Shown here: piece after piece, positions 2,045-18,558 of the stretch
Numbering within the stretch: the first letter of the stretch is position 1
Layout: each line of letters opens with the position of its first letter
Source of the DNA: Chlorobiota bacterium
Lineage (GTDB): Bacteria > Bacteroidota > Bacteroidia > Bacteroidales > F082
Length of the DNA stretch: 33,360 bases
Assembly: GCA_013151505.1 (NCBI GenBank)
Contig: JAADID010000081.1
Span: forward strand, 1 to 33,360
Reading direction: 5' to 3'
Made by a program: the position numbers and the translations under genes
The notes under the pieces: model-generated
Told to the model about the DNA's origin: nothing
Database searches by the model: none
What the model saw: only the letters and a program-made list of their open reading frames with translations

Positions 2045-2189
2045 TTAATGGCTAAAGCCGATATGACGTGGCTTCTGTTTTTGATCACGGCGCTCAAGCA
2101 CCGTGCAAAACCCCATGACAGAACATTTTGCCCCGGCTTTTAAGCCGGGGGTAAAAAATGTAAAGAAACAATCTGGCTTTAGCCATTAA
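2045..2189. repeat. Copy 1 of a dispersed multi-hairpin element with 15-bp terminal inverted repeats
   Basis: TTAATGGCTAAAGCC (2045-2059) and its exact reverse complement GGCTTTAGCCATTAA (2175-2189); internal hairpins CACGGcGCTcaAGCaCCGTG (2086-2105) and CCCCGGCTT-TT-AAGCCGGGG (2131-2150). Related copy at 18190-18396. Confidence 0.75.
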
Positions 2190-2267
2190 AAAATTATTAT
2201 ATATCTCATATATCCAGTATGATACATCATGAGTATCAGTAGTAACCGCAATAATCCGATATCAACT

Positions 2268-2851: not shown

Positions 2852-5095
2852 TTACGTTATTCCGTTGTTTTGATAATTGACAAAGTCGCGTTGTGATTTA
2901 TAAAGATTGACAACCTGTAAAGCCAGGTTCTTCGTTTCATTCAGGATATTAAAATACAGTATGCTGTTTTTTGTTCCCACTTCTGCATTTTTTATCCGTT
3001 TGATCATCACTTTATTCAGTTCACCAAGCATGCCAAGGAATTGCCTTTGCAGTTCCTGCAATTCTTCCTGCTTACTGAAGTCCTCTGCCTTCAGACTTTC
3101 AGCAACAAGCAGGATCAACTCCGAAAGCCGGGCATGAACTTTTCTCAACTCATTTATCTGCTCTTTTAACAGCGGTTTATGGTTATTGTCAACATGATTA
3201 AGCGCAGGAGTGACAATAAACGAAATACTGTGAAGCATTTCACGCATATAGTCAAGCACCTGGACAAAATAATAAGCCGTATCGGTTGCCTCGGCACGTA
3301 ATTTTTCCACGATCAGGCCGATATGGTCTTTCAGATATTTTGTTCTTGCCGTAATCTTATCAATTTCCTTTTTTTTCAGGTCTTTGAAATTTTCTTTTTC
3401 CAGCCCGTCAATAGCCCTGCCATAATTTTCAACAATGATCTTCAGGTTTTTGACAATCCCTTTCATTGATTTCTCGACAATATTTTCATCGGAAAGAGTT
3501 TCCAGTTCATCTTCCTCTCCTTTTTCTTCCAGCGTTTTTTTGTGATGAATGACATGTGTCCGGTAAATTACATAAGCCACAACGGCCAGCATGATGACCA
3601 TGCCCACAATTCCAGCGTAATTAAAGATATAAACCATAATAAAAGCCACAGTAAAGGCGGAAATTGCCGTCAGAAACCAACCGCCAACCACGGCAAACAC
3701 ACCCGATATCCGGTAAACAGCGCTTTCCCGGTCCCATGCCTTATCAGCGAGCGAAGCGCCCATAGCGACCATAAAAGTTACATACGTAGTCGAAAGGGGC
3801 AATTTAAGCGAAGTTCCGAAAGCGATAAGAATACTGGAAACCGTAAGGATGACCGACGCACGGATCAGATCAAATTCGGGCTTGTCTTTTTTCCTGGTCC
3901 CACTTTTTTCTTTATAAGGTTCAAACTGTTTCTCGATAGTCCGTACCAATCCACCGGGCAGCGCTTTTTTGATGTTTGATGAAAAATTTATAGATGAACG
4001 CACCAGTACTTTTGATATCCATGTTGACCTGAACCTTTCGTCTCCTTCATCCTGGCGGCCAAGGTCGAGGGATGTCTGAACCACCGATCTGGCCTTGGAT
4101 GAAATGAACAAAGTCAACACCATAATGATCCCTGCTATCACAAGAAAAAGAGTAGGCGTTGGCACTTTTCCGGCCAGTCCGCTCATCAGAAAGCTGTTTG
4201 GGTCAGCGCCGGGGTTGACAGCAAACAATTCATAGGAATTAAAACCGGCGATGGGCACCCCGATAAAGTTTACAAGGTCGTTACCGGCAAAGGCCATAGC
4301 AAGGGCAAATGTACCGATCAAGACAATAACTTTCAGGATATTAAACCGGGTAAGCCAGAATAGCAGTTGCAGCAGAATAGTCCATCCTATCCAACTGTAA
4401 AGCAGGATCAAAGCGCTATTGGCATTGATCCAGTCTTTCGTTTCATCTGTCATAAAGGAGGCTCCCTTCGCTCCTTTGATCAGCATAAAATACGTCATGG
4501 CTGTAAAGGCGATACCCCCCCACACAGCGCCGAGGTATTTGATCCGCCTGACATAATTAAAAGAAAAAGCTATTCTTATAAAATACTGGATTAACGCACC
4601 TGTGGTAAAAGCAATTCCGACGGATAGCAGGATACCGGAAATAATAGCGAGAGCCTTGGAAGAGTTGATAAACTGGCCTATGGTCATACCTCCGTCACTG
4701 CTAATCAACTTTATGGTAGCCATTCCCACCGCTGCTCCCAGCAATTCAAACACAATGGAAACCGTGGTTGATGTTGGCAAACCTGCCGTATTGTAAGCAT
4801 CCAGCAAGATCACATCGGTGACCATCACAGCCATAAAAATGATCATAATCTCGGAAAAATAAAACTCTCCGGGATTAAAAATGCCTTTTCGCGCCACTTC
4901 CATCATACCGCTGGAAAATACAGCCCCCACCATGATACCCAGTGCGGCAACGATCACAATGGTACGAAAAGGGGCAACCCGTGAACCAATGGCAGCATTC
5001 AGAAAATTTACGGCGTCATTGCTGACTCCTACAATCAGGTCGGATGCAGCGAGCAGAAAAAGGACAATGACAATGGTCAGATAAACGTATTCCAC
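2852..5095 (-). CDS. PiT-family inorganic phosphate transporter with C-terminal PhoU-like helical region
   Basis: N-terminal 'GVSNDAVNFLNAAIGSRVAPFRTIV', internal 'AFAGNDLVNFIGVPIAG' and 'LPLSTTYVTFMVAMGASLAD' are PiT signatures. The ~200-aa C-terminus is helical and charged. Confidence 0.92.
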   Translation of the reverse strand: MEYVYLTIVIVLFLLAASDLIVGVSNDAVNFLNAAIGSRVAPFRTIVIVAALGIMVGAVFSSGMMEVARKGIFNPGEFYFSEIMIIFMAVMVTDVILLDAYNTAGLPTSTTVSIVFELLGAAVGMATIKLISSDGGMTIGQFINSSKALAIISGILLSVGIAFTTGALIQYFIRIAFSFNYVRRIKYLGAVWGGIAFTAMTYFMLIKGAKGASFMTDETKDWINANSALILLYSWIGWTILLQLLFWLTRFNILKVIVLIGTFALAMAFAGNDLVNFIGVPIAGFNSYELFAVNPGADPNSFLMSGLAGKVPTPTLFLVIAGIIMVLTLFISSKARSVVQTSLDLGRQDEGDERFRSTWISKVLVRSSINFSSNIKKALPGGLVRTIEKQFEPYKEKSGTRKKDKPEFDLIRASVILTVSSILIAFGTSLKLPLSTTYVTFMVAMGASLADKAWDRESAVYRISGVFAVVGGWFLTAISAFTVAFIMVYIFNYAGIVGMVIMLAVVAYVIYRTHVIHHKKTLEEKGEEDELETLSDENIVEKSMKGIVKNLKIIVENYGRAIDGLEKENFKDLKKKEIDKITARTKYLKDHIGLIVEKLRAEATDTAYYFVQVLDYMREMLHSISFIVTPALNHVDNNHKPLLKEQINELRKVHARLSELILLVAESLKAEDFSKQEELQELQRQFLGMLGELNKVMIKRIKNAEVGTKNSILYFNILNETKNLALQVVNLYKSQRDFVNYQNNGIT

Positions 5096-18072: not shown

Positions 18073-18189
18073 CAAAGAAAACGAGTGTCATTTCGGATGC
18101 GACGAAGGAGCATGAGAAATCCCCTGAATATTTCTGTCTTTTTGAGTAAAAAGACCCTGAAATAAGGGCCCGCATCATGACATGACATA

Positions 18190-18396
18190 TTAATGGCTAA
18201 AGCCGGTTTGATTTTCTTTTTTAATCACGGCGCTGAAGCACCGTGCAAAACGCAATGGCGGGATATTTTACTTCGACTTTTAAGCTTTTCTGGTTCACGC
18301 ATACAAGAGCAAAAAGATTTTTATCAATAGAAATTTTGCCCTGCCCTTCAGGGCAGGGATTTATAGTTTCAAATTCAATCTGGCTTTAGCCGTCAA
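18190..18396. repeat. Copy 2 of the dispersed multi-hairpin element (see 2045-2189)
   Basis: TTAATGGCTAAAGCC (18190-18204) with GGCTTTAGCCGTCAA (18382-18396); shared core ATCACGGCGCTgAAGCACCGTGCAAAAC; extra hairpin CCCTGCCCT-TC-AGGGCAGGG (18339-18358). Similarity continues left of the IR (CCCGCATcAtGACATGACAtATTAATGG). Confidence 0.75.
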
Positions 18397-18438
18397 TAAA
18401 GACATAAACTGTTATGTTAAAGCGTATTAAATATATAT

Positions 18439-18558
18439 GTCATCAGTAGGGATGCGGAGTGCAGCAGAACGACGAGAAATCCCCCGGGTATGCACCCACG
18501 TTCCCTGGGGATTACTCACCACAACCGCACTACCCCGCGCACCAGGGTTCGGAATGAC
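18439..18558. repeat. Intergenic repeat of the 'GTCAT...GAGAAATCCCC...GGAATGAC' type
   Basis: GTCATCAGTAGGGATGCGGAGTGCAGCAGAACGACGAGAAATCCCC...GGGGATTACTC...GGAATGAC; a partial relative GTCATTTCGGATGCGACGAAGGAGCATGAGAAATCCCC lies at 18087-18124. Confidence 0.6.

Follow-up and report, generated by a model that had tools for sequence, protein, structure and literature searches.

The stretch of DNA analysed here as a whole (the window) spans 33,360 nt of contig JAADID010000081.1 from a Chlorobiota bacterium. It carries, in two of its intergenic spaces, two copies of a single dispersed and almost wholly intergenic family (Table 1). As an earlier note on this DNA had remarked, both are located between convergent genes: copy 1 between 1853+ and 2392-, its neighbours being an LVIVD-repeat protein that bears a secretion tail and a YpsA-like protein, and copy 2 between 18072+ and 18662-, its neighbours being the alpha subunit of citrate lyase and a DUF2279 lipoprotein. 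Copy 1 had been described as closed by exact 15-bp inverted repeats enclosing two further hairpins, and this is indeed what is found: the ends TTAATGGCTAAAGCC (2045-2059) and GGCTTTAGCCATTAA (2175-2189) correspond base for base, each contains the self-complementary GGCTAAAGCC, and the two inner hairpins are in place. With one mismatch at most, GGCTAAAGCC is present five times in the window, for 1.46 expected, a count reached in 0 of 100 shuffles. Taken as single-stranded DNA, positions 2040-2194 fold far above shuffled sequences on both strands (z -6.9 and -7.7). The related copy is real and as described, save for its right end, which had been thought diverged and hardly is: 13 of the 15 end-repeat bases are kept there, while the adjacent inner stem has a different sequence with its pairing intact (CCCTGCCCTTCAGGGCAGGG).

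Table 1. Features of the two copies, in positions of the window
Feature	Position	Strand	Description and basis
Copy 1, core element	2045-2189	.	two inverted half-units, A then B; similarity to C88, C44 and C115 starts at left TTAA
Copy 1, A half-unit	2045-2110	+	TTAA, hairpin 1, spacer, hairpin 2, CAAAA; alignment, covariance model
Copy 1, A half-unit, hairpin 1	2050-2059	+	GGC-TAAA-GCC
Copy 1, A half-unit, hairpin 2	2086-2105	+	CACGGCGCTCAAGCACCGTG, then CAAAA at 2106-2110
Copy 1, B half-unit	2126-2189	-	minus-strand reading; alignment, covariance model
Copy 1, B half-unit, hairpin 2	2131-2150	-	CCCCGGCTTAAAAGCCGGGG
Copy 1, B half-unit, hairpin 1	2175-2184	-	GGC-TAAA-GCC
Copy 1, outer module, B side	2190-2246	.	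common to C44 and C88; similarity to about +57 past right TTAA
Copy 2, core element	18190-18396	.	longer linker separating the half-units
Copy 2, A half-unit	18190-18250	+	hairpin 2 at 18226-18245; alignment, covariance model
Copy 2, B half-unit	18334-18396	-	hairpin 2 at 18339-18358; alignment, covariance model
Copy 2, outer module, A side	18135-18189	.	about 55 nt; common to C243, C62, C310, C64, C85, C18 and C253
Copy 2, outer module, B side	18397-18443	.	common to C243 and C62; similarity to +47/+48

The surroundings of copy 1 hold further features of their own. Beside it, at 2257-2293, lies another common palindrome, of the type GTTGTTGGT...ACCAACAAC / GTTGGTGTCCTCACCAAC, which is present in many intergenic spaces. 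The 85 bp at 1897-1981, upstream of copy 1, are 95% identical to a stretch of the sister-species genome G001 (G001:C283:415-499) in a non-matching place, and are another dispersed repeat. Farther along, a reading frame of 747 aa (2852-5095) matches the PHO4 phosphate transporter family over its first 330 residues or so, followed by a long remainder without assignment.

The genome that harbours the window (3.56 Mb, 348 contigs) contains far more than two copies, as a check of the consensus against it reveals. A nucleotide search returned 68 matching pieces; the end motif, with up to two mismatches, was met 67 times, versus 21 for a reversed control; a covariance model retrieved 65 half-units in approximately 35 places, its top match being the B half-unit of copy 1 (E 2.6e-18). 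Because several contigs end within a copy (C18, C253, C134, C64, C90 and C167), the true copy number is probably higher. The family thereby accounts both for a common intergenic palindrome of these genomes (GGCTAAAGCC plus a second hairpin) and for breaks between their contigs. No Rfam model matches the element, and a literature search with the hairpin sequence did not retrieve a description of the family.

Each copy consists of an A half-unit, a linker and a B half-unit, the latter displaying the plan of A when read on the opposite strand. Alignment of 49 half-units yields the form TTAA-N-[GGC-TRAA-GCC]-spacer-[8-bp stem, TRAA loop]-YAAAA, with an A+T-rich spacer, some 20-25 bases long, between the hairpins, a base after hairpin 1 that tends to pair with the N preceding it, and flanks that are nearly uninformative beyond TTAA. 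The TRAA loop is found in all 49 hairpins 1 and in 47 of the 49 hairpins 2, and YAAAA follows hairpin 2 in 46 half-units. Since TRAA is not self-complementary, the half-unit has a polarity, and the inverted ends of the element exist because two such polar units face each other. The stem of hairpin 2 changes in sequence while retaining its pairing, with variants such as CACGGCGCT.AAGCACCGTG, CCCCGGCTTAAAAGCCGGGG, CCCTGCCATAAATGGCAGGG, CCCCACGCTAAAGCGTGGGG, CACCGGGCTAAAGCCCGGTG and others. Covariation bears this out: 95.6% of the cells are paired, versus 75.8% in shuffles and 26-40% in slid controls, and the covariation score is 0.488 versus 0.140 in shuffles, of which none in 500 reaches the observed value. 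Left unaided, RNAalifold recovers both hairpins.

Hairpin 2 also hosts some oddities. In six copies (L060, L063, L066, L073, L082, L087) the A-side loop carries an extra piece of about 23 nt, TCCAGACGGATTGCTTTGCAAAA, and a related piece is found at L140, in G001, where the other hairpin type has it as part of its loop; an insert borne by the loops of different hairpins is odd. On the B side, a nested palindrome, GCCCGCCTGACCGGACGGGC, occupies the loop in L061:1532-1608, L092:547-624 and L093.

Preserved pairing might also be expected of RNA or DNA structures selected by the host, such as bidirectional terminators, stabilisers of mRNA 3' ends or protein-binding sites, for which dispersal would be secondary. 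The location of the copies agrees with this, as 27 of the 28 examined are outside open frames of at least 100 aa, with flanking genes that are convergent in nine cases, tandem in nine and divergent in two only. However, an excess of convergent over divergent neighbours is equally expected if insertions upstream of genes get removed. Furthermore, hairpin 2 is followed on its 3' side by YAAAA and not by a run of T, scans for terminators and promoters gave nothing over chance, Rfam has no counterpart, and the element is missing at matching sites of sister species, a poor fit to a conserved local function. We therefore regard a primary role for the host as unlikely.

The comparison with sister species is informative about the nature of the copies. 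Five intergenic sites occupied here (those of copies 1 and 2, or w1 and w2, and those on C309, C305 and C138) have matching sites without the element: the covariance model identifies no half-unit in the spaces corresponding to copies 1 and 2 in G004, to copy 2 in G002 and G003, to C309 and C305 in G001, or to C138 in G004. Because the flanks are about 75-90% identical between species, insertion points can be placed only approximately, and C309 against G001 is the only clean alignment; there, the gap neatly spans the element, which is absent from G001 together with some tens of flanking bases. These absences imply that copies are insertions, or losses, at the scale of species within the genus. 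The G001 site matching copy C296 has no half-unit and contains a different repeat family, and the palindrome GTTGTTGGT...ACCAACAAC / GTTGGTGTCCTCACCAAC is found there as well.

Where does the element end? When copies of different subfamilies are aligned, similarity starts between about -4 and 0 at the left TTAA and commonly stops between 0 and +8 at the right TTAA. Within subfamilies it extends farther: copy 2, C243, C62 and others have some 56 further bases in common beyond the A half-unit and about 50 beyond the B half-unit, whereas in copy 1, C44 and C88 the shared extension is on the B side and measures about 57 bases. We considered the conserved A-side flank as an independent repeat targeted by the element, but it is never present without an adjacent half-unit, and is treated, for this reason, as an outer module of the subfamily. 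In the two subfamilies with conserved outer modules, the mobile unit may end elsewhere than at TTAA. Alignments of copies and comparison with sister-species sites did not reveal a dependable target-site duplication, even though the TTAA at both ends could be read as one. Shared outer modules are also what the duplication of one genomic region would leave behind, yet the flanking genes differ from copy to copy and most similarities stop at TTAA; the probability of segmental duplication as the source of the copies is negligible. Neither outcome that could have undermined the earlier note, a family limited to two copies or duplicated segments without ends, is the case, and its proposal of a non-autonomous dispersed family is supported by some 35 copies, by core-form ends at TTAA and by the five sister-species sites.

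A transposase gene with matching ends is found on contig C257, directly flanked by half-units on both sides. Its 155-aa product matches Pfam Y1_Tnp (E 1.9e-24), and the NCBIfam IS200/IS605 transposase family with a score barely over the cut-off. By profile comparison, its nearest relatives are the transposases of IS608 and ISDra2. The predicted fold (pLDDT 90.9) points to the same two enzymes, the E. coli RAYT 4ER8 appearing lower in the list of matches. Among 25 homologues, the catalytic residues H54, Y114, Q118 and H122 are invariant, while H56 and H121 are kept in at least 90%. With HuH, WQ, a length of about 150 aa and the motif Y---Q--HH (Y114-Q118-H121-H122), the protein bears the signature of TnpA_Y1 subclass 1.2, a placement by motif and not by tree. 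The motif recurs in the homologues and in the other readable Y1 proteins of the genome, with a near variant, YIKNQKKRH, on C150.

The association of unit and enzyme extends well beyond one locus. Among 20 homologues with at least 50% identity, 18 have half-units on at least one side of the gene and 16 have them in opposite orientations on both sides. Over 34 loci, including six same-genome paralogues, the best unit score near the gene follows the identity of the transposase (rho 0.88, p 8e-12). The paralogues have almost no half-unit match near their genes, and the link therefore needs more than the common descent of the genome; unit and transposase run parallel partly through shared ancestry, although the same-genome paralogues speak against this as the sole cause. 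At the level of 41 genomes, at least three half-units are present in 10 of the 12 that have a close transposase versus 4 of the 29 that do not (p 5e-5), and in 7 of 9 versus 4 of 29 once the source genomes of the model are removed (p 7e-4), with p-values that treat related genomes as independent. There are exceptions: G005, G030 and G034 have 13-17 units and no close full-length match to the transposase, a situation that would have to be explained by loss of the gene, an incomplete assembly or another mover, while G014 and G019 have a related transposase without any match to the covariance model.

Other Y1 genes of the genome have repeats of their own. The subclass-1.2-type paralogue at L100 (G000:C114:2229-2570 plus flanks), 51% identical, is flanked by hairpins of another family, CCCAGCCCTGAAGGGCTGGG, for which the genome holds 47 matching pieces; transposase and hairpins are, together, a second and separate system. 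Hairpin repeats also lie alongside the Y1 genes L099 (C150), L102 (C201) and L104 (C174). Those of C150 and C201 were considered as further dispersed families and set aside, being mostly local, unlike the repeats of C114.

Most homologues have their gene tightly placed between a minus-strand and a plus-strand unit, and the closeness of the C257 protein to the transposases of IS608 and ISDra2 could suggest that gene and units make up a mobile IS200-like insertion sequence, from which the dispersed copies derive by internal deletion. This is improbable. The gene is present once, the next Y1 protein of the genome being 51% identical, and its G001 counterpart (91% identical) has the same neighbour gene. 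Moreover, the units point outward at the gene and inward in the dispersed copies, which are therefore not simple deletions of a gene-bearing element. With a single copy and the same neighbourhood in a sister species, the enzyme appears to be settled in the genome, a behaviour that is typical of RAYTs rather than of insertion sequences.

The label MITE/REP-like of the earlier note has to be split accordingly. Exact 15-bp inverted ends, a size of 145 bp and a TTAA beside both ends would suit a classical MITE mobilised by a DDE transposase, TTAATGGCTAAAGCC being its terminal inverted repeat and TTAA its target-site duplication. Yet these ends are themselves hairpins, each followed by a second paired hairpin in a fixed polarity, and in many genomes the units bracket a Y1 transposase, which is a HuH enzyme working on single-stranded DNA and not a DDE enzyme. 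The units around the transposase gene keep TTAA too, while more distant relatives lose it and retain the hairpins; the one empty site that can be cleanly aligned, that of C309 in G001, has no lone TTAA. A DDE origin is thus very improbable and MITE does not fit, whereas REP-like does. All copies examined are small, and the only gene found with the same ends is the Y1 gene.

IS608 and ISDra2 transposases recognise hairpins in single-stranded DNA, with contacts to a T of the loop and guide tetranucleotides. We hold it likely, with good confidence, that the family is a REPIN-type non-autonomous repeat, processed in trans by the single-copy Y1 transposase of C257. The link to this enzyme is well supported by association, and we infer from it that the enzyme moves the element. 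Acting in trans, the Y1 (HuH) transposase would recognise half-units folded as single-stranded DNA, then cleave and re-join them. The protein would bind the TRAA-loop hairpins on the strand that presents TRAA in both loops, and TTAA, on the 5' side of the hairpin, would serve as the guide tetranucleotide, the part played by GTAG in REPs. Cleavage would take place at TTAA and/or YAAAA, and copies would spread via single-stranded intermediates at replication.

The nearest analogues are the REPINs, inverted doublets of REPs hypothesised to be moved by RAYTs (Bertels and Rainey, 2011; PMC3116915). As in Pseudomonas fluorescens, the repeat is intergenic and consists of two palindromic units inverted about a variable spacer, in dozens of copies and with compensatory changes, and one settled cognate Y1 transposase is flanked by the same repeats. 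By contrast, there are two hairpins per unit, with TRAA loops and a TTAA flank, instead of one GTAG-tagged hairpin: neither GTAG nor GTGG stands at the 5' foot of the hairpins, where TTAA is found. The enzyme differs too, with Y---Q--HH where RAYTs (class 2) have Y---NP. The biochemistry of RAYTs and IS608 shows recognition of loops, stems and the tetranucleotide 5' of the hairpin (PMC8266576), and, by analogy only, the conserved TRAA and TTAA would fit such recognition elements. TIRtrons (De Nocera et al., 2013; PMC3733652) also combine RAYT-like genes with inverted-repeat flanks unrelated to GTAG-REPs, of which some recur in the genome, but their repeat consensus and protein motif differ, and most TIRYTs were later assigned to subclass 2.1. 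The IS200/IS605 family (IS608, ISDra2) provides the nearest solved structures; in the present case, however, mobile near-identical copies bearing the gene are absent, no TnpB is seen next to it, and the units are paired and inverted.

The classification of Corneloup et al. (2018; PMC6006769) offers two further terms of comparison. Subclass 2.6 (RAYT group 5) is likewise found in Bacteroidetes, with non-GTAG hairpins around the gene and copies elsewhere; its motif, however, is Y---NP, and its atypical structures are compared here by description only. Subclass 1.2 is defined by Y---Q--HH, by a low copy number and by its presence in cyanobacteria and Bacteroidetes, and the C257 protein shares with it a length of about 150 aa, HuH, WQ, Y---Q--HH, a low copy number and a host among the Bacteroidetes. 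Yet the subclass is listed with 'no' REP and as generally devoid of typical terminal secondary structures, whereas the genes studied here have hairpin units on their flanks, with further copies dispersed genome-wide. The REP search described there combined a mandatory foot sequence, GT[AG]G, with manual inspection, and may for this reason have missed TTAA-flanked units. Later literature on subclass 1.2, in a search that excluded most subscription journals, does not report such repeats. We lean, if only slightly, to the view that subclass 1.2, so far credited with neither REPs nor the behaviour of insertion sequences, is in Bacteroidota a parallel lineage of settled transposases, each with its own TTAA-flanked two-hairpin REPIN-like family. 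If so, REP-type systems arose at least twice from Y1 enzymes, in class 1 and in class 2. This suggests that domestication of Y1 enzymes into caretakers of short palindromes occurred in the IS200-like branch too, and it provides a candidate substrate for a group of transposases described without one, the activity of which is directly testable on short oligonucleotides.
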